Below are positions 2,842 through 38,712 of a stretch of 64,000 bases of DNA, in pieces. The stretch lies in assembly GCF_900109545.1 (NCBI RefSeq), contig NZ_FOAP01000012.1:1-64000 (forward strand). Reading direction: 5' to 3'. Position numbers and translations under genes: made by a program. A model generated the notes under the pieces. That model saw only the letters and a list, made by a program, of their open reading frames with translations. It made no database searches and had not been told where the DNA came from. How positions within the stretch are numbered: the stretch's first letter is position 1; every line of letters starts with the position of its first letter. This DNA is from Stigmatella aurantiaca. Lineage in GTDB: Bacteria > Myxococcota > Myxococcia > Myxococcales > Myxococcaceae.

Positions 2842-4920
2842 CTAGTCCAGGGCCTCCGGGCCCGGCTTGGGGGCCTTCCCTCCCTCCAGGCGAGGAAGCT
2901 CCGGGGTCTCCAGTTCCTCCAGGATGAGCCGGTCGTAGGGGGCCTCGTCCCCCACCGGGAGCTCCTCGATGAAGCGGGACTGCCGGACGATGATGCGCGT
3001 GCCGTCCTGGGGGTTCGTTGTCAGCGGGTAGGTCAGCGCCAGCTCGTCCTTGGCCCGGGTCACCGCCACGTAGAAGAGGCGCCGCTCCTCCTCCTCTTCC
3101 TCCGCGTCCCGGGTGGCATTCACCATGGGAAAGCGCCCCTCGGCCAGCCAGATGACGAACACCGCCCCCCATTCCAGCCCCTTGGCCTGGTGGACCGTGG
3201 ACAGGGTGAGGAACTCGTCCGGCGCCTCCGTCTCCACGGTGTCCTCGGCGGCGAACTCGGACACCAGGGCGATCTCCGACAGGAACCGGGGCAGCTCCTC
3301 GAAGCGCCCGGCGTACTCCGCCAGCTGGCGAATGTCCTCCTCCCGGCGGCCGTCGGCCCCGAACTCCTCCCGGAGGTACTCCCCGTAGCCCCCCCGCAGC
3401 ACGTCCTCGATGAGCTGGCCCGGCGTCCGGGCCGCGTCCTCCCGGGTGAGCCGGGTCATCAGCGCCGTGAAGCGGGTGAACCCCGCCGTGGCCCGCCGGG
3501 GCACCTGGGCGCGCACGTCCGGGTGGCTCAACGCATCCTTGAAGGAAGGCGCCGAGGGCACCGCGCTCAGCGCGGTCCACAGGGCCTCCGCCGTGGCCTG
3601 CCCCACCCCGGAGACGAGCTTCACCACGCGCTTGAAGGCCAGCTCGTCTCCTGGGTTATGGACCAGCCGCAGGTGGGCGAGCACATCCTTGATGTGGGCC
3701 TGCTCGAAGAAGCGCACCCCCGAGCGCACCCGGAAGGGGATGCCCCGCCGGGTCAGTTCGATCTGGAGTTCCAGGGAGTGGCTGTGCGCCCGGTAGAGCA
3801 CCGCCATCTCCTCCAGGGGAAGCCCCTCCTCGCGCAGCTCCAGGACGCGCTGGGCAACGAACGTGGCCTGCTCGTCCGTGTCCCGGGTGGGCACCACCAC
3901 CGGCGGCACCCCGGGCTGCCGCGAGGCGGTGAGCTGCTTGTGGAACTGGCGCTGGTTGAGCGCGATGGAGGCGTTGGCCAGCGTGAGGATCTGCGGAGTG
4001 GAGCGGTAGTTGCGCGTGAGCGGGTACACCCCACACCCGGGGTAGCGCTGTGGGAAGTCGATGATGTTGGTGAAGTCCGCGCCCCGGAAGCTGTAGATGG
4101 ACTGGCAGTCGTCCCCCACCACCGTCAGGTTCTTGCGCTCGCCCACGAGCAGGTCCACCAGGTCTCCCTGGAGGCGGTTGGTGTCCTGGTACTCGTCCAC
4201 CAGCACGCACTGGAACCGCTCGGTGAGCTGGGTGCGCACCGGGGGGTGCTCGGCCAGCAGCCGCTTGAGGTGCAGCAGCAGGTCATCGAAGTCCATCAGG
4301 TTCATCTGCTGCTTGCGCTGCTGGAAGCGCTGCCCCACCGCCAGCACCTCCTCCGCCAGGGGCAGGAACTGCGGCCGGCGGTCCACCAGCACCTCCGCCA
4401 GGGACTTCTGCAGGTTGATGGCCGTGGAGACGAGATCCAGCACCACCTCGGCGCGTGGGAAGCGCCGCTCGCGGGACACCTTCCGCTCGGCGACGCACGA
4501 GGCCATCAGGTCCCTCGCATCCTCCCGGTCCAGGACCGTGAAGGACGGCGCGAACCCCAGCGAGGGGGCGAACTGGCGCAGCAGGGCGTGGGCCGCATGG
4601 TGGAAGGTGCCGCCCAGGATCCGGCGCACGTCCACGAAGCCTCCGGCCAGCTCCTCCACCCGCCGGGTCATCTCCCGGGCCGCCTTGTTGGTGAAGGTGA
4701 GCAGCAGCATCCCCTCGGGCGGCACCCCGCGCTCCAGCAGCCGCGCCACCCGGAATGTCAACGTGCGCGTCTTGCCCGTACCCGCCCCGGCGATGACCAG
4801 CACCGGCCCGTCCCCCGCCTCGACCGCCCGGAGCTGCTCCTCGTTGAGGAGCGCCGCGTAGTCGATCTTCAGGCGGGGCTTGGCCTGGGTGACCTTGAGC
4901 GTGTAGGTGCGGGTGGCCAT
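2842..4920 (-). CDS. UvrD/PcrA-type superfamily 1 DNA helicase
   Basis: 692 residues. After a short N-terminal extension come Q-motif-like LNEEQLRAVEA, Walker A GAGTGKTRT, motif Ia TFTNKAA, motif II VDEYQDTN, motif III GDDCQSIYSFRGA, motif IV NYRSTPQIL, motif V TVHQAKGLEW and motif VI YVAVTRAKDEL. All catalytic motifs of a 3'-5' SF1A helicase are present. Role: unwinding in excision repair, recombination control or replication restart. It is slightly shorter than E. coli UvrD because the C-terminal tail is reduced. It starts about 50 bases after the end of the upstream lipoprotein gene and is separated from it by a hairpin, so it may have its own promoter. Which paralogue (uvrD, pcrA or rep) cannot be settled. 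Confidence 0.93.
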   Translation of the reverse strand: MATRTYTLKVTQAKPRLKIDYAALLNEEQLRAVEAGDGPVLVIAGAGTGKTRTLTFRVARLLERGVPPEGMLLLTFTNKAAREMTRRVEELAGGFVDVRRILGGTFHHAAHALLRQFAPSLGFAPSFTVLDREDARDLMASCVAERKVSRERRFPRAEVVLDLVSTAINLQKSLAEVLVDRRPQFLPLAEEVLAVGQRFQQRKQQMNLMDFDDLLLHLKRLLAEHPPVRTQLTERFQCVLVDEYQDTNRLQGDLVDLLVGERKNLTVVGDDCQSIYSFRGADFTNIIDFPQRYPGCGVYPLTRNYRSTPQILTLANASIALNQRQFHKQLTASRQPGVPPVVVPTRDTDEQATFVAQRVLELREEGLPLEEMAVLYRAHSHSLELQIELTRRGIPFRVRSGVRFFEQAHIKDVLAHLRLVHNPGDELAFKRVVKLVSGVGQATAEALWTALSAVPSAPSFKDALSHPDVRAQVPRRATAGFTRFTALMTRLTREDAARTPGQLIEDVLRGGYGEYLREEFGADGRREEDIRQLAEYAGRFEELPRFLSEIALVSEFAAEDTVETEAPDEFLTLSTVHQAKGLEWGAVFVIWLAEGRFPMVNATRDAEEEEEERRLFYVAVTRAKDELALTYPLTTNPQDGTRIIVRQSRFIEELPVGDEAPYDRLILEELETPELPRLEGGKAPKPGPEALD

Positions 4921-4938
4921 GGGCCTGGAACTCTAACC

Positions 4939-4962
4939 GTCCCCCCGGCCGCCGGCAGGGAC
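4939..4962 (-). terminator. possible terminator between lipoprotein and helicase genes
   Basis: An imperfect inverted repeat with outer arms GTCCC/GGGAC and inner CCGG/CCGG pairing lies seven bases after the stop of the 4970-6661 gene, just before the helicase start. There is no clear T-run, so function is uncertain. Confidence 0.35.
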
Positions 4963-4969
4963 AATCCGT

Positions 4970-6661
4970 TCAGTGCCCCGGGCGCTCCAGGGCAGCCAGG
5001 CGGGCGGCGGCCGCGGCGCGCACCTCCGGCACCGGATCCCGCTCCTTCACCACGGCCAGCAGCTGGTGGGCCAGCTTCGGCAGCTTCGTGCCCACCGCCT
5101 CCAGCGCCGCCGTGCGCTCCTTCACCGCGCTGTCCAGGCGCTCGCGCACCTGCCGGTCCCGGCACAGCCGGGCGTGGGGGTTGCGCTCCCGCAGCAGCAG
5201 CTCCGCGTCCGCCAGCCGGGCCTCCGACAGCCGCACCGCGTCCGCCGCCAGCAGGCCGAAGCCCTCCACGTCCTCGGGGAACTCCGTCGCCGTCTGGCGG
5301 ACCTGGGCGATGACGCCCGCGGCGAACCGCGCGTTCTCCGCCGCCGCGCAGAGCTGCCGGGCCGAGGCCAGGGGAATGCCTCCTTCGGGGGACACCACCT
5401 CCTCGCGCGCCGCCCCGAGCGCCCACAGCGAGAGCTGCCGCGCCGCCACCGCCGCCGAGAAGGCCTGGCGCCGCTCCTGGCGGAGCTGCACCCAGCGCCG
5501 CAGCACCACCGGATCCGGCGCCCCCGCGTCGAAGGCCCGCTGGTACTCGGTGGCCGCCTGCTCGAGCTGCCCTGTCAGATCCAGCAGCGCCGCGATGGTG
5601 AGGTACACCTCCGCGCTGCTCGCGCGCTCGCGCAGGCCCTCCAGCCGCGAGGCCACCTCGTACTCGGCGACCTCCCGGGGCAGGGCCCGGAGCACGCTCT
5701 GAAGGCTCTCCAGCGCCCGCAGGCGGATGAGCGGGTTGCGCGCGGTCCGGAAGGCCGTCAACAGTGGCTCCAGGGCCCGCACCGAGACGTGCTGCCCCAG
5801 CTCCTCCGCCGCCTCCCACCGGTCCAACGGATCCGGCGCGCCCAGCGCCCGTTCGAGGTCTCCCAGCTCCCGGAGGTAGTACCCGGCCTGGACCGCCTGG
5901 GCCAGCGGCTCCCGGGACTCCCGCGCCTCGCGCTCGGCCCGCGCCCGGGCCATCCGCTGGGGCCAGTCCGGCAGCTGGGGCGCCAGCGGGTTCGTCTTCA
6001 ACCGCGCCTCCACCTCTTCCAGGAGCCCCGACACGAGCAGCCCTTCCAGCTCCAGGCGCAGCAGCGCCACCTTCGCCTGCTCCCGGTGGCTGCCCGCCGG
6101 GAACTCCCTCAGGTACGCGAAGAGCTTCGACGCCCCCGAGGCCCGTGCCTGGGCGAAGGCCTGCGCATCCAGCCGGTCCTCGACCTCCAGCCGCCGGGGA
6201 TCCCCTTCCGCGCCCTTCAGAAAGGACGAGAGCTGCCGCGTGTCCTGGGTCGAGGCCAGCTCCGCGCGCTCCGCCTCACCCAGCAGCCGCTTCGCCTCGT
6301 CCCGCTGGGCGCCCTCCGGGTGGTCCGCCAGGAACTGCCGCCACCCCGCCACCGTGTTCGTCTCCTTCGCGGCGTTGAAGCGCAGCCCCTCCAGCAGCGT
6401 ACCCGCCGCCCGGGCCTGCGCCGCCTCCGGGTAAGCCTCCAGGAAGCGCTTGTAGGCCACCACCGTGTGCAGCTTCCGCGCCTCGGCGAACTCCAGCTCC
6501 TCGATGCGCACCTGCACCGCCTCAGAGAGCGTGTCCTTCGGATGCTCCCGGAGAAAGGCCCGGTAGGCCTCCACCGTGTCAGCCTCCTTGGCCCGCTGAT
6601 AGGCTCCGGACGCACAGCTTGTGAGCAGCAGCAGGACCACCAGGGGCAAGAGCTTGGCCAT
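4970..6661 (-). CDS. outer-membrane-type lipoprotein with TPR- and HEAT-like helical repeats
   Basis: I place the start at the ATG at 6661, because it gives a clean lipoprotein signal (MAKLLPLVVLLLLTSC, lipobox LTSC). Upstream in-frame starts would run into the divergent gene. The product is 563 residues. From about 20 to 190 it repeats a unit of the type tAxxYRxFLxxhP, as seen in VEAYRAFLREHP, VVAYKRFLEAYP and VAGWRQFLADHP; these are TPR/Sel1-like helical hairpins. A later part (about 300-360) resembles HEAT repeats. This suggests a periplasm-facing scaffold; no enzymatic motif is seen. The partner is unknown. It diverges from the NlpC/P60 gene, about 130 bases apart. Confidence 0.85.
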   Translation of the reverse strand: MAKLLPLVVLLLLTSCASGAYQRAKEADTVEAYRAFLREHPKDTLSEAVQVRIEELEFAEARKLHTVVAYKRFLEAYPEAAQARAAGTLLEGLRFNAAKETNTVAGWRQFLADHPEGAQRDEAKRLLGEAERAELASTQDTRQLSSFLKGAEGDPRRLEVEDRLDAQAFAQARASGASKLFAYLREFPAGSHREQAKVALLRLELEGLLVSGLLEEVEARLKTNPLAPQLPDWPQRMARARAEREARESREPLAQAVQAGYYLRELGDLERALGAPDPLDRWEAAEELGQHVSVRALEPLLTAFRTARNPLIRLRALESLQSVLRALPREVAEYEVASRLEGLRERASSAEVYLTIAALLDLTGQLEQAATEYQRAFDAGAPDPVVLRRWVQLRQERRQAFSAAVAARQLSLWALGAAREEVVSPEGGIPLASARQLCAAAENARFAAGVIAQVRQTATEFPEDVEGFGLLAADAVRLSEARLADAELLLRERNPHARLCRDRQVRERLDSAVKERTAALEAVGTKLPKLAHQLLAVVKERDPVPEVRAAAAARLAALERPGH

Positions 6662-6790
6662 CGCCCCCACCCTTATCCCACCCGCCCGGCGAGGGAAAAC
6701 CTGAGCACTGACGGACGGTTGCCTGGGTAGGTTTTTTGACGACAATGCCTCCCCCCCTGACCATGGGCCCTGGATTCGCTGGGAGGTCCC

Positions 6791-7633
6791 ATGAGGCTCA
6801 TCTCGCTGGTGGCTGGGATGTTGTGGATGACGGGGTGTGCCACGGGCGGCCCGCTCGGCGGCCAGATGGCCTTCGAGGGCCTGCGCTACCGCCCCCTCAC
6901 CCCCTCCGCGGCGCCCCGCGACATTCCCGACGAGGTGGAGCCTTCGGAGCCCGCCCTGGCCCAGGCGCCAGCGGCGGAGTCCCCGCGCGTCCCCGTTTCC
7001 GCCCCCAAGCCCGCCCCCCGCGTGGCCCGGACCGCCGCGAAGAAGAAGGCCGCCCCCGCCAGCCCCCGCGTGTCCGCCTCGGCGCGGGAGACGGTGCTCG
7101 CCACGGCCCGGAGCCTGGTGGGCCAGTCCAAGGTGACGGTGAAGGGCCGCCCCTACCCGGCCGACTGCACCGGCCTCGTCGAGGCCGCCTACTCCTCGGC
7201 GGGCATCTCGTTCCGGGGCAATTCGAAGCCGGGGGACAACGGCGTCACCGCGATCTACCGGTACGCCCAGGCCCAGGGCCGGGTGTACACCCGCGGCACG
7301 CCCACCCCCGGGGACATCGTCTTCTTCCGGGAGACGTACGATCAAAACCGCGATGGGCGGCGCAATGACGGGCTCACCCATGTGGGGGTGGTGGACAAGG
7401 TGGCGGCCGATGGCACCGTCACCGTCATCCACCGCGTCCAGCGGGGCGTGGTCCGCTACCGCATGAACCTGGCCCGCCCGAACGCCGCCAAGGACGCGCG
7501 CAGCGGCCAGGTCCTCAACGACACGCTGCGGGCTCCCAGCTCCGGGAGGCCCTTTGCCCTCACCGGACAGCTCTTCGCCGCCTACGCCACCGTGCTGCCT
7601 GCTCCCGCGCCGGTGGCCGTGGCCAGCCGGTAA
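6791..7633 (+). CDS. NlpC/P60-type peptidoglycan hydrolase lipoprotein
   Basis: 280 residues. The N-terminus has a lipoprotein signal with lipobox MTGC, followed by an Ala/Pro/Lys-rich linker (about 45-95). The C-terminal papain-like domain has the nucleophile at Cys126 (PADCTGLVEAAY) and a His at 197 (DGLTHVGVVD). This is the Cys/His order of NlpC/P60 and CHAP amidases that cut stem peptides in peptidoglycan. Expected location: outer-membrane-anchored, periplasmic. The gene ends exactly where the convergent glycosyltransferase gene ends, with no base between the two stop codons. Confidence 0.85.
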   Translation: MRLISLVAGMLWMTGCATGGPLGGQMAFEGLRYRPLTPSAAPRDIPDEVEPSEPALAQAPAAESPRVPVSAPKPAPRVARTAAKKKAAPASPRVSASARETVLATARSLVGQSKVTVKGRPYPADCTGLVEAAYSSAGISFRGNSKPGDNGVTAIYRYAQAQGRVYTRGTPTPGDIVFFRETYDQNRDGRRNDGLTHVGVVDKVAADGTVTVIHRVQRGVVRYRMNLARPNAAKDARSGQVLNDTLRAPSSGRPFALTGQLFAAYATVLPAPAPVAVASR

Positions 7634-8818
7634 TCAGGACGAGGCGCGCGCGGTGCGATCCCACGCGGCCTTCTGCGCATTGCGCAGGAACCGCCAGAAG
7701 CCCACCACGATGGCCAGGTTCATCGTCACGAAGTAGTACGCCACCGAGGCGATGCGCTTGCCCGTGCCCGTCAGCACCCCGGCCTTGCCCAGGTACGCCA
7801 GCGCGTAGAACAGCGCCTGGAAGAAGAGCGTGAACTGGTAGAAGAGGCTGTCCATCAGGAAGAGGTTCGCCAGCAGCGCCACCGCCATCAGCGCCGGCGC
7901 GCACCAGCGCAAGAGCTTGTGCGACCAGAAGGCGAAGGCCGGGAAGCCCGCGGTGGGCAGCAGCAGCCCCGGCACCATCTTCAGGCTCTGGAAGTTCCCG
8001 GCCGCGATGCGCGCCCGGCGGCCGAACTCCTTGCCGTAATCCTCCGTCGTCTCCTCGTGGGCCACCGCTCCGGCCTCGTAGACGACCTTGTAGCCGTTCT
8101 CCAGGATGCGCAGCGGGATGACGAAGTCGTCCACGATGGTGGACGGCGGCAGCTGCGTGAAGAGCGTCCGGCGGATGGCGTACAGCCCGCCGTTGGCCCC
8201 CACCACCGACCCGCGCTTGCCCTCGTAGAACTTGATGAACGACTCGTAGTTCCAGTAGGCGCTCTCCTCGTAGTCCTGCTTCGTCGGGTTGTAGAGCCGC
8301 AGCTTGCCGCAGACGGCGCCTACCTCCGGATCGTCGAAGTGGCGCACCAGCGCCTCGATGGCGCCCGGTTCGATCATCGTGTTGGCGTCCGACAGGACGA
8401 TGATGTCCCCCTTGGCCATGGGGATGCAGCGGTTGAGCACCGTCGTCTTGCCGGCACGGGGCGCGGGCGACAGCCGCACGCGCGGATCCGTCCACTGACG
8501 GACCAGCTCATCCGTGCCGTCCGAGGAGCCGTCCGAGCCGATCAGCACCTCGAACCGGTCCTCCGGGTACTTCAGCGCGAAGCTGTTCTGCAGCTTCTGC
8601 TGAATGCAGCTGGCCTCGTTGTAGGCCGCCACCACCAGGCTCACCGACGGTTGCGGCCCCGTGGACCGCTCCCGGCGCCGGTTGGAGCCTGTCCGCATGA
8701 AGCGGATGGACTGAAACACCTGGGCCATCCCATCCATGGCGCACAGGATGAGCGGGTAGAAAAAATATGTGTGCAAAAGCAGCAGGGCGGCACACCAGAA
8801 AAGACCTTCCGCCATCAC
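7634..8818 (-). CDS. membrane family-2 glycosyltransferase
   Basis: 394 residues. An N-terminal membrane helix (about 5-25) precedes a GT-A domain with VSLVVAAYNEA, the diphosphate-binding GSDGSSDGTDE, DxD-type LSDANTM, acceptor-side GANGGLYAIRR and (Q/R)xxRW-like KLLRW. Three to four hydrophobic segments follow at the C-terminus. This is the layout of processive or polymer-forming inverting transferases (cellulose synthase/hyaluronan synthase/PgaC-like). Sugar and product are unknown; an exopolysaccharide is likely by family. It stands alone, with 162 bases upstream that can hold its promoter. Confidence 0.88.
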   Translation of the reverse strand: MMAEGLFWCAALLLLHTYFFYPLILCAMDGMAQVFQSIRFMRTGSNRRRERSTGPQPSVSLVVAAYNEASCIQQKLQNSFALKYPEDRFEVLIGSDGSSDGTDELVRQWTDPRVRLSPAPRAGKTTVLNRCIPMAKGDIIVLSDANTMIEPGAIEALVRHFDDPEVGAVCGKLRLYNPTKQDYEESAYWNYESFIKFYEGKRGSVVGANGGLYAIRRTLFTQLPPSTIVDDFVIPLRILENGYKVVYEAGAVAHEETTEDYGKEFGRRARIAAGNFQSLKMVPGLLLPTAGFPAFAFWSHKLLRWCAPALMAVALLANLFLMDSLFYQFTLFFQALFYALAYLGKAGVLTGTGKRIASVAYYFVTMNLAIVVGFWRFLRNAQKAAWDRTARASS

Positions 8819-34410: not shown

Positions 34411-35037
34411 ATGCGCTTCCGAGCTTGCAGCACACTCCTCTTGCTCTCCGCGTGTGCTACGGCAGAGCCGAAGCCTCAAAACCAGGTGGCCATTCCCTGG
34501 GTTGCTCCGCTCGCCGCACCGAAGCCCATCGCGCTTCCAGTCCCAGCGGGACTGACGCCCCCCATGACCGTCATGGTGGAGCCCGATACTCAGAAAGCAC
34601 AGGATCCTAAAGAGCAAACGGAGGGCTCTAAAGCCAATCGAAGCTCACGTGCCCCACTGACTTCGTCCCGCCGCCCAGAGTGCATTCCCAAGATTGTTCC
34701 TCACCGGGGTGGAGACCCTCTCCACGACCAATGCGCTGACAAAGTTCCGCAGAACAGTTTCCCTGGCTTTGATGCGCTTGTTAATGGCAAGCACTTTGAC
34801 GCGCTCCAATCCAGCGCGGGCGTCCTGTGGGAGATCAAGACCGACAATTTCGATCCATACACGATCCCTCTTCAAAGAATCGTGGTCGCCAAGCAGGTGC
34901 CGGAACTGCAACACGAGCGCAACATCGCGAGAAGTTGCGGATTTGATTTTCGGACTGGAGTCCGCAGCGCCGCTCACAAGCGAGCACTGGAAGCCATCGA
35001 TATCACCCTCAAAGTCATTGTCATGGATTGGTGCTGA
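34411..35037 (+). CDS. SitA-like lipoprotein toxin with a PD-(D/E)xK nuclease-type C-terminus
   Basis: 208 residues. The signal peptide MRFRACSTLLLLSAC has lipobox LSAC (Cys15). A Pro/Ala-rich spacer (about 18-90) follows. The C-terminal part (about 91-208) has Asp130 in GKHFDAL and Glu141/Lys143 in VLWEIKTDNF, the D...ExK core of restriction-type nucleases, with four other Cys. Myxococcus SitA toxins are lipoproteins with varied C-terminal nucleases, moved between kin by outer-membrane exchange, each followed by an immunity gene; this gene has that plan. I recall this C-terminal family as DUF6310, unverified. The next gene starts 1 base after its stop. Codon use is less G+C-rich than in flanking genes. 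Activity is inferred. Confidence 0.75.
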   Translation: MRFRACSTLLLLSACATAEPKPQNQVAIPWVAPLAAPKPIALPVPAGLTPPMTVMVEPDTQKAQDPKEQTEGSKANRSSRAPLTSSRRPECIPKIVPHRGGDPLHDQCADKVPQNSFPGFDALVNGKHFDALQSSAGVLWEIKTDNFDPYTIPLQRIVVAKQVPELQHERNIARSCGFDFRTGVRSAAHKRALEAIDITLKVIVMDWC

Positions 35038-35038
35038 C

Positions 35039-35797
35039 ATGACGGCTCCGCACCGCTCTCTCGTCCTCAGCATCTACGCGCCTGCTCTTGGAGATGACAC
35101 CGGCCGCACCCTTTCCGTAGTGCGAGGACTGGAATATGCGCTCCCTGGCTTGCGCCTAGGATGGACCATTTCTGACAAGGGAGAGTTCATCCCAGTACCA
35201 CAGCGCGATGAATGGCTCGCTCAGGCAGAAGCGAAAAAAACGCTCCCGATGCTCTGCAATGGCAAAGAGGACGATCTCGTGACGGTTTCTGGATGGGAAC
35301 GTCCTGCCGGTATCTCGTCAGGAGGTCAGCCACAATTTGAAGTCCACGCAGAATTGCCGCTCGATGCAACCAGAATCGCGGCGTCGGTGGCTGTGCTGGA
35401 GACCATGGCAGAGGGCGCACATGCCTTTTGGGGGCGCCTGATGCCGTCCAGCGTGGCGGCTGAAATGGCTCAGCAGGTTCGCCATTCGACGAAGGAGTTA
35501 CATGCTCCGCCCCGGGGGTTGCCAGCACTCAACCTCACGGAGGACATCCCTTCACCTGAGATACCGCATCACCTGGGATGGTTGAATTACTGGTCAGCCG
35601 CTACCTCCCGGGCCCTCGGCTTCCCGGCCCACGATCGCGACGTAAACTTACTCTCACGGTCGCGACGCACCGCAACAGGTGGGTGGGTGCTCCGGCTCAC
35701 AGATGAACCGCTTGATCTCGACAACCCCGCTCACCTCGACGCACTCTTACGTGCTTATGAGCGCTTTCCGGGGATTGGTGGGCGCTTCATCCCCTGA
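35039..35797 (+). CDS. probable immunity protein for the adjacent lipoprotein toxin
   Basis: 252 residues from ATG 35039, one base after the toxin stop (TGACATG); longer in-frame starts lie inside the toxin gene. No signal peptide, membrane helix or enzyme motif is seen. The C-terminal part (HHLGWLNYWSAATSRALGFP) resembles myxobacterial immunity-type proteins of the Imm52/DUF5953 kind, recalled and unverified. Cytoplasmic immunity proteins of this kind bind and block the toxin in cells that receive it. Position and tight coupling are the main evidence. Confidence 0.7.
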   Translation: MTAPHRSLVLSIYAPALGDDTGRTLSVVRGLEYALPGLRLGWTISDKGEFIPVPQRDEWLAQAEAKKTLPMLCNGKEDDLVTVSGWERPAGISSGGQPQFEVHAELPLDATRIAASVAVLETMAEGAHAFWGRLMPSSVAAEMAQQVRHSTKELHAPPRGLPALNLTEDIPSPEIPHHLGWLNYWSAATSRALGFPAHDRDVNLLSRSRRTATGGWVLRLTDEPLDLDNPAHLDALLRAYERFPGIGGRFIP

Positions 35798-35908: not shown

Positions 35909-36021
35909 CAGCCTGAGCCCAAACCCGGAGGCACTTGCCATGAAAGGGGGTAACGGCCGACAATTGGGCATCCATGCTGATCATGCCCGGCGGTCCAGCA
36001 TGTACAAGTGGGGGTTTTGAG

Positions 36022-37656
36022 ATGGTCGTCATCATGGCAGTGTTGATTTTTGCTTTGACAATAGCGCTCACGGTCTTCCAGACAAGGGCCCGCTCCGCCA
36101 ACGCCTTACTTCAACAGGCACGCGAAGAGACCGGCTCACTGCAGGAGCGAGTGAGCAAGCTGGAGGCCGACAATAAAGTCCTTGAGCAGTACCGCCGGAT
36201 TCCGAACGCAGAGCAGCACGCTCAAGAAATCATCCAGGCTGCCGAGCGGCGCGCAGAAGAGGTGCAAGCGCGTGCTCAAGAGAACCAAGAGCGGATGCTG
36301 GCCGCAGTTCTGGCGGAGAACGAGCGGACCCGCGCCGCGCTCCAGACGGATCGGGATCGGGCAACTGCCGAATTCCAGGTGACCAAGAACAAGGCCAGCG
36401 CCATCCTTACGGACGCCGCCGCAGAAGCAAGTGCAGTGGTCGAGACCGCCTACAAACGCGCCCGGGAGCTGGAGGCAGAGTCCTCCTTGACGGTGCAGAC
36501 CATCGAGGAACTGAAGCGAACCATCGAGGCGCTCAAGAACGTCATCGAGGGATACGGCAATCAGTATGTCATACCGACTTATGGCCTCCTGGATGAACTC
36601 GCCGAAGAGTTCGGGCACGCGGAATCCGGCCAGCGGCTCAAGTCCGCCCGCGACTCGATGCGCCGGATGATCAAATCCGGGACGGCCGCTACGTGCGACT
36701 ACGTCGAGGAAAGCCGCAAGAGCACGGCCATCGACTTCGTTCTCGACGCGTTCAACGGCAAGGTGGACACCATCCTCCTCAGCCTCAAGAGCGACAACCA
36801 TGGGACCCTCGCTCAAAAGATCCGGGATGCCTTCAACATCGTGAACAACAACGGCAAAGCGTTCCGGAACGCCCGCATCACACCCGAGTATCTCCAAGTC
36901 CGTCTCGATGAACTCCACTGGGCCGCAGTCACACAAGAACTCAAGGAAAAAGAGCGAGAAGAACAGCGTATTCTCAAGGAGCGGATCCGAGAAGAAGAGA
37001 AGGCCCAGCGCGAGTACGAGCGCGCGATGAAGGAAGCCCAAAAAGAGGAAGAGGTCTTGCGCAAAGCCATGGAGAAGGCTCAACGCGAGATTGAGAAGGC
37101 GAGCGATGAGCAGAAAGCCCGGTATGAGGACCAGCTCCGCGAGTTGCAGGAAAGGCTGAAGAGCGCGGAAGAAAAGAATCAGCGTGCGCTCTCCATGGCG
37201 CAACAGACCAAGACTGGGCACGTCTATGTCATTTCCAATATTGGTTCCTTCGGCGAAGACGTTTACAAGATTGGGCTGACGCGGCGGTTGGAGCCTCTCG
37301 ACCGCATCAAAGAGCTAGGCGATGCCAGTGTTCCTTTCGAGTTTGATGTCCACTCGCTCATCTCGAGCGAAGACGCTCCAGCCCTTGAGCGGGAACTCCA
37401 CAAACGGTTTGTCCGAACGCAGGTAAACAAGGTCAACCCCAGAAAGGAATTCTTCCGGCTGACCCTCCAGGACATCCGCCGCGAACTGGAAGGCATGGGC
37501 ATCCACGCCAAATGGACCCTGGCCGCCGAGTGCAGAGAGTACAAGGAAACGCGCGCTATCGAGCAAGCCATGGTCGACAAGACCTTCCATGAAAGCGCAT
37601 GGATGGAGAAGCAACTTCAAGAGCAGGACGCAGATCCGCAAAGGCTGGCAGGATAG
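36022..37656 (+). CDS. SNIPE-like membrane-anchored GIY-YIG nuclease (anti-phage)
   Basis: 544 residues from ATG 36022 (a start at 35974 would add 16). A single N-terminal membrane helix (about 2-20, MVVIMAVLIFALTIALTVFQ) is followed by a long coiled coil (about 25-165). A middle domain (about 165-310) fits DUF4041 (FVLDAFNGKVDTILLSLK). More charged coiled coil follows (about 310-390). The C-terminal T5orf172/MUG113-type GIY-YIG domain (from about 399) has GHVYVISNIG, DVYKIGLTRR, a Glu in LERELHKRF and NPRKEFF. SNIPE, the known protein with this order, sits in the inner membrane and cuts incoming phage DNA. The family match is strong; activity here is inferred. It stands alone inside the accessory island. 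Confidence 0.85.
   Translation: MVVIMAVLIFALTIALTVFQTRARSANALLQQAREETGSLQERVSKLEADNKVLEQYRRIPNAEQHAQEIIQAAERRAEEVQARAQENQERMLAAVLAENERTRAALQTDRDRATAEFQVTKNKASAILTDAAAEASAVVETAYKRARELEAESSLTVQTIEELKRTIEALKNVIEGYGNQYVIPTYGLLDELAEEFGHAESGQRLKSARDSMRRMIKSGTAATCDYVEESRKSTAIDFVLDAFNGKVDTILLSLKSDNHGTLAQKIRDAFNIVNNNGKAFRNARITPEYLQVRLDELHWAAVTQELKEKEREEQRILKERIREEEKAQREYERAMKEAQKEEEVLRKAMEKAQREIEKASDEQKARYEDQLRELQERLKSAEEKNQRALSMAQQTKTGHVYVISNIGSFGEDVYKIGLTRRLEPLDRIKELGDASVPFEFDVHSLISSEDAPALERELHKRFVRTQVNKVNPRKEFFRLTLQDIRRELEGMGIHAKWTLAAECREYKETRAIEQAMVDKTFHESAWMEKQLQEQDADPQRLAG

Positions 37657-37709: not shown

Positions 37710-38712
<1,003 letters not shown>

Follow-up and report, generated by a model that had tools for sequence, protein, structure and literature searches.

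The gene at positions 36022-37656 (+ strand) of the window, the 64,000-nucleotide stretch of Stigmatella aurantiaca DNA analysed here, raises the question of whether a SNIPE-like protein encoded among genes of cell-cell competition in a myxobacterium is a member of the SNIPE family, and whether it would serve against phages or in the contests of its neighbours. The Escherichia coli protein SNIPE, or PD-lambda-1, is described in PMC13190303 and PMC9519451, both available in part. Anchored in the membrane, it cuts phage DNA during injection, and it represents a recently described way of distinguishing virus from self that relies on the site of DNA passage across the membrane. The window locus brings a member of a SNIPE sister lineage from a social bacterium into view.

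Domain order and identity of the protein

The open frame extends over 35974-37656 (+) and, from the ATG at 36022, encodes 544 amino acids. Judging from the sequence, this ATG is the likely start, with an alternative ATG upstream at 35974. Scans for sigma-70 promoters and terminators yielded no more than shuffled sequence. The PADLOC model PDLC03976 (PD-Lambda-1) spans residues 7-521 with an E-value of 3.9e-114 (the PD-Lambda-1 search gave 3.9e-114 and 2.1e-111), compared with 1.9e-198 for the E. coli reference. That reference is the 500-residue PD-lambda-1 annotated in the record of phage PhiR26_1, and is thus also a phage-borne copy. All nine residues named in the available part of PMC13190303 (E223, N250, L253, W257, E264, K305, I308, T319 and E414) are present in it, so it can be used as the published SNIPE. 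BLASTP aligned the window protein to this reference with 43% identity over residues 161-486 (E 1e-74). By region, identity is 66% in the GIY-YIG domain, 49% in the linker (residues 301-397), approximately 26% in the DUF4041 region and 13% in the first 160 residues. Both proteins have a membrane helix, a coiled coil, DUF4041, a linker helix and a GIY-YIG domain in the same order, and the catalytic Glu is kept; they differ in length (544 against 500 residues) and belong to separate lineages. These data bear out the preliminary description, which had called the protein SNIPE-like from the sequence alone. The S. aurantiaca genome has one DUF4041 match and one PD-Lambda-1 match.

The individual parts are readily located. 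The membrane helix occupies approximately residues 1-20 (36022-36081), where a single N-terminal hydrophobic stretch with a mean hydropathy of 2.90 over residues 1-19 agrees with the helix proposed earlier. Because basic residues come after this helix, the protein probably has the N-out/C-in topology of SNIPE. According to the available text of PMC13190303, 59% of the published SNIPE homologues have one membrane helix and 7% have two. A coiled-coil helix covers residues 63-176 (36208-36549), within the fast-evolving part of the protein. DUF4041 (PF13250), which the preliminary description had placed within residues 165-310, was found at residues 239-294 (36736-36903), with 51 bits against a Pfam cut-off of 27 at the protein level (E 1.3e-13) and 55 bits when searched on DNA. 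The linker helix, residues 288-395 (36883-37206), leads to the GIY-YIG nuclease domain at residues 399-489 (37216-37488). The T5orf172-type end read from the sequence is matched there by both MUG113 (residues 415-489; 63.7 bits, cut-off 22.3, E 2.5e-17) and T5orf172 (residues 399-489; 55.2 bits, cut-off 20, E 1.1e-14).

The Tyr, Arg and Glu expected of a GIY-YIG core are kept as Tyr402, Arg422 and Glu456. None of the three varies in an alignment of 13 rows, E. coli SNIPE among them, and all three belong to the 65 columns invariant in 41 aligned homologues. In the 13-row alignment, Glu456 falls on the catalytic E414 of E. coli SNIPE, and changing E414 to alanine abolishes defence (PMC13190303, in its available part). 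The positions of E. coli E223 and N250 are occupied by Ala264 and Gln292. At the position of W257, the 12 rows of lineage A, the lineage that includes the window protein (see below), have K (8), R (2) or H (2), the window protein having H. The same portion of PMC13190303 reports that W257R in E. coli SNIPE strengthens both tape-measure binding and defence against phage Bas14.

An AlphaFold2 model built from 41 homologous sequences (mean pLDDT 83, pTM 0.59) fits the SNIPE order of parts. In the model, helices at residues 2-58 and 63-176 are followed by a helical DUF4041 region at approximately 180-287 and a further helix, interrupted at 360-361, at 288-395. The alpha/beta GIY-YIG domain starts at residue 399. 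Since the pTM is modest, the placement of the parts in space is only tentative. Foldseek with this model found no solved structure at E 0.001 or better, and a sequence search for solved-structure relatives gave coiled-coil proteins at a best E of 0.055. Against BFVD, Foldseek found nine viral proteins at E 0.001 or better; their TM-scores over the whole length are low, and several bear the name T5orf172 or Bro.

The preliminary description had also singled out the coiled coil as long, and this did not hold. The distance from the membrane helix to the GSFG motif of the nuclease is 388 residues. Viral copies, 75 of 80 of which were measured, have a median of 412 (quartiles 387, 412 and 412; range 323-470). 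The distance is 366-454 residues in lineage A (7 of 8 loci measured, L034 being dropped because the ATG-only start rule shortened it), 305-406 in lineage B (28 of 32) and 341 in E. coli SNIPE.

Judged by its sequence, then, the product of 36022-37656 is a true SNIPE-family protein of a sister lineage, and the sequence features required by the published mechanism are present; its anti-phage activity is what we infer by analogy. Proteins of this type are a kind already known, since homologues from many phyla have been reported (PMC13190303, in its available part).

Lineages, phage-borne relatives and divergence

A PD-Lambda-1 match at E 1e-20 was found in 37 of the 145 genomes of the order, at 41 places. 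Forty of these myxobacterial loci were placed in a tree (the short piece G061:C147 was left out), where they split into lineage A, with 8 loci in 8 genomes including the window, and lineage B, with 32 loci. Lineage A is set off by a branch of length 1.74 with support of 100/100, and is sister to the lineage of the tested E. coli SNIPE. Lineage B groups on the E. coli side; it includes the broken copy L040, whose branch is very long and whose placement is unsure. This split is a sub-lineage matter, the available part of PMC13190303 defining SNIPE homologues more broadly. Lineage-B proteins from other genera of the order share the domain order of the window protein, with 42-49% identity over residues 226-490, the broken copy aside.

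Phage, prophage and plasmid copies also fall on the lineage-A side of the tree, together with Bacteroidota and Spongiibacter proteins. The share of viral sequences on this side is not a census, because the query that collected them consisted of 12 lineage-A rows plus E. coli SNIPE. Relatives are encoded in 367 of 443 pattern-matching viral stretches in IMG/VR, with 80 kept, and relatives of either lineage occur in 37 records of a phage collection and 184 of a plasmid collection. The DUF4041 proteins of E. coli phage vB_EcoM-813R9 and Synechococcus phage Ssp-JY37 lie on the same side of the deep branch as the window protein, with 52-53% identity over 72-73% of the query, and the viral copies measured resemble it in the distance from helix to nuclease motif. 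In the P2-like phage vB_EcoM-813R9, the gene sits between the repressor cI and the integrase. These copies are on phage genomes, whereas that of the window lies in the chromosome with Sit genes around it.

Comparison with a second species of the genus (genome G077) revealed an uneven rate of change. The two SNIPE homologues are 96% identical in the nuclease and 54% identical over residues 1-160. Pairwise dN/dS is 0.11 overall, 0.28 for residues 1-160 and 0.02-0.12 for the remaining regions, of which the GIY-YIG domain has 0.03, so the gene is a real, maintained one under purifying selection in the two species. Relative to silent change, the N-terminal part changes approximately nine times faster than the nuclease. 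Positive selection on this part is unsupported, the pairwise dN/dS of 0.28 being below 1. PMC13190303, in its available part, proposes that the N-terminal region of SNIPE is an adapter to differing host or phage proteins, and the faster N-terminal change seen in the sequences fits this proposal of changing partners. With a conserved nuclease and a faster-changing N-terminal part, the proteins of these two species lend themselves to swaps as a test of the published idea that phage specificity lies in the N-terminal region.

The partners and phages of the window protein are likely to be other than those of E. coli SNIPE. The target phage is not transferable from the E. coli protein because the window protein belongs to a sister lineage and its DUF4041 region is only approximately 26% identical; for the same reason, the tape-measure binding of E. 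coli SNIPE may not extend to it. A limited literature search found no report of an experimentally tested lineage-A SNIPE, and no paper was found pairing PD-Lambda-1 with Myxococc-.

Sit-type neighbours and the role of the gene

The gene lies, as the preliminary description had recognised, among genes of cell competition. Upstream are a DUF6310 lipoprotein-like gene (34411-35037, +; PF19829, E 4.7e-55) and a DUF5953 gene (35039-35797, +, its ATG start judged from sequence; PF19378, E 5e-111). Downstream are a shortened SitA6-type lipoprotein gene (37710-37976, +) and a gene for a double-CXXCG immunity protein of the SitI6 family (37990-38712, +; TIGR02264, 326 bits against a cut-off of 100.15). 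The shortened gene encodes approximately 88 amino acids from the chosen ATG and matches positions 2-39 of the 187-position DUF2380 profile, compared with 240 amino acids for a full-length relative (L051). Beyond SitI6 lies a gene that we take to be uvrA. The SNIPE homologue matches no Sit model; only its neighbours do. Sit toxin/immunity cassettes belong to outer-membrane exchange (PMC5562445 and PMC12077181, in their available parts), and the latter gives PF09533/TIGR02269 for the SitA6 family of toxins and double_CXXCG for the adjoining family of immunity proteins.

The DUF6310 and DUF5953 genes at 34411-35797 and elsewhere in the genome (18 and 20 places, fragments counted) form a large paralogous set of a lipoprotein plus a partner that looks like a Sit-type toxin/immunity family. 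The motif [FY]DA...LWE[IV]KT occurs in 16 of the 17 DUF6310 frames read, the remaining one being a fragment, and a simple pattern found a lipobox-like stretch in 14 of the 17. From this motif, which we presume on general knowledge to be of the PD-(D/E)xK nuclease type, the DUF6310 protein is probably a nuclease-type toxin, and the DUF5953 protein is its probable immunity partner. A literature search found no paper naming DUF6310 or DUF5953, and a sequence search found no solved-structure relative of DUF6310 (best E 0.4).

The SNIPE gene sits in a low-GC exchange site that contains outer-membrane-exchange toxin/immunity genes. G+C is 57-61% across 34-39 kb, against 65-72% in the surroundings. 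In the closest relative compared (G079, UvrA 97% identical), the segment 34242-37972 has no BLASTN counterpart; in place of these 3731 bp, G079 has 1912 bp of other DNA, and the flanks on either side are homologous. Other relatives have other genes at or near this site (L049 12527-13453 and L050 12140-13890), two examined genes of L050 lacking an NCBIfam match, and protein-kinase-like genes adjoin uvrA in relatives (one L051 gene by search, others by eye). In G077, the DUF6310-DUF5953-SNIPE block is collinear with that of the window and 75-79% identical to it. Both blocks have a homologous copper amine oxidase gene on the corresponding side; the uvrA counterpart of G077 lies approximately 38 kb from the block. 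Between the window and G077, dS is 0.94-1.22 for the three genes of the block, against 0.42 for uvrA and 0.47 for copper amine oxidase. Simple vertical inheritance of the block is therefore doubtful, while the dS contrast is not decisive because the stronger codon bias of the latter two genes lowers their dS (GC3 of 0.84-0.90, against 0.61-0.75 for SNIPE, DUF6310 and DUF5953).

Across lineage A, four of the eight loci (the window, G077, G099 and G076) have a SitA5, SitA6/SitI6 or DUF6310/DUF5953 gene within approximately 1.1 kb, according to tblastn searches of flanks at least 7.5 kb long; the other four have no such gene in flanks of this size. NCBIfam confirmed the SitA5 genes beside SNIPE in G099 and G076. 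In lineage B, with sites that mostly differ from that of the window, one locus of 32 (L065) has such a neighbour, several of the 32 being shortened by contig ends (Fisher P 0.003, or 0.014 with 3 of 7 in lineage A). Uniform placement would give 0.17 of eight lineage-A loci (P 1e-5; without G077, 3 of 7, P 2e-4). HsdR was dropped as a control family because it is too rare (2 matches in 8 genomes), and phage integrases were taken instead. They occur at 47 places in the same eight genomes, from which the 15 strongest were set aside as Xer-like by score alone, leaving 32. One of the 15 with flanks has a Sit-type neighbour (P 0.03, or 0.08 with 3 of 7). A comparison of coordinates, in which SitA5 was not covered, added two of the 17 without flanks, where a DUF5953 match (in one case a fragment) lies 0.2 and 0.8 kb away. 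This makes at least 3 of the 32 places (P 0.02, or 0.06 with 3 of 7). The markers were picked after the neighbours had been seen, and the sample is small, so the linkage is suggestive. SNIPE and cassette follow one another in tandem at two loci (the window and G077), whereas G099 has them head to head and G076 tail to tail; with no fixed place or strand, they form no fixed operon. The most likely reading is a shared mobile hotspot, with SitI6 and a SitA6 remnant in the window and SitA5 beside two relatives, in which no functional coupling is needed. If the linkage is upheld in larger samples, it would mean that viral and social defence spread together.

In our judgement, the window protein is very probably a SNIPE-type anti-phage protein of a second, often phage-borne lineage, acting by membrane-held GIY-YIG cutting of incoming phage DNA. 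By analogy with E. coli SNIPE, the single N-terminal helix would serve as an inner-membrane anchor. From there, the coiled coil and DUF4041 would extend into the cytoplasm, where they would dock on DNA and on the machinery of phage injection (host entry protein, tape measure protein or both), and the C-terminal GIY-YIG domain would cut phage DNA during entry. The chromosome is proposed to be spared because the nuclease stays at the membrane.

An unrelated coiled-coil protein that happens to end in GIY-YIG has virtually no chance of being the explanation. Coiled coils do draw spurious matches, and weak FtsL, SMC and JetC matches were seen, but DUF4041 and GIY-YIG both score above curated cut-offs, the invariant columns in 41 rows include the three core residues, and the Pfam, PADLOC and BLASTP results together refute a look-alike. 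A different beneficiary with the same biochemistry is conceivable though unlikely: the gene could be a superinfection-exclusion gene from a former prophage or mobile element that now contributes little to host defence. The many phage, prophage and plasmid copies in lineage A, a G+C below that of the surroundings and the absence of the segment from G079 would all agree with such a relic. However, none of the eight phage-integrase matches in the genome (PF00589, E 1e-10 or better) is on the contig of the window, C12, no phage family was found among seven neighbouring frames scanned, and purifying selection keeps the gene in two species of the genus.

The Sit-type neighbours invite readings in which SNIPE takes part in social conflict. 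As a functional part of the cassettes, the protein would act at inner-membrane entry on cargo delivered by neighbouring cells, or shield the cassette-bearing host in contests. The linkage of lineage A, set against uniform placement and against lineage B, speaks for this role, but orientation varies between loci, half of them lack a Sit-type gene in their flanks, the markers were chosen post hoc and mobile integrases of the same genomes adjoin such genes too, which makes it highly improbable. A bolder proposal, which we consider a long shot, is that a phage-derived SNIPE lineage was adopted into the mobile hotspots of kin discrimination in myxobacteria. It would move together with the toxin genes of outer-membrane exchange as a combined defence package, social and viral at once, and its N-terminal part would have switched to inner-membrane entry proteins possibly common to phage DNA and contact-delivered toxins.

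Lineage-B loci elsewhere in the order

Many lineage-B loci have a serine dehydratase or an Hhe helicase beside SNIPE. At eight loci of genera g5 and g6 (L039, L066, L071, L073, L076, L079, L080 and L081), helicase-nuclease genes belonging to one cluster precede SNIPE by 13-33 bp; the one examined, in L071, matches PADLOC PDC-S37 and Hhe (1.3e-286). In L066, L073 and L079, SNIPE is in turn followed after 42-43 bp by genes that all fall in one cluster, SIR2-like in L079, the one examined; a three-gene defence operon of helicase-nuclease, SNIPE and SIR2-like gene is possible. Beside the helicase-SNIPE pair of L071, two genes at 3965-7833 resemble an SbcD/SbcC-type nuclease pair by eye, from their first residues. 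In the genus of G111, 18 of 27 species genomes have a SNIPE match, a figure counted differently from the "up to 10%" of genomes within clades given in the available part of PMC13190303. A gene of one cluster lies downstream of SNIPE in 15 of these 18 (a serine dehydratase in L069, the one examined), so SNIPE is widespread at one site in this genus.
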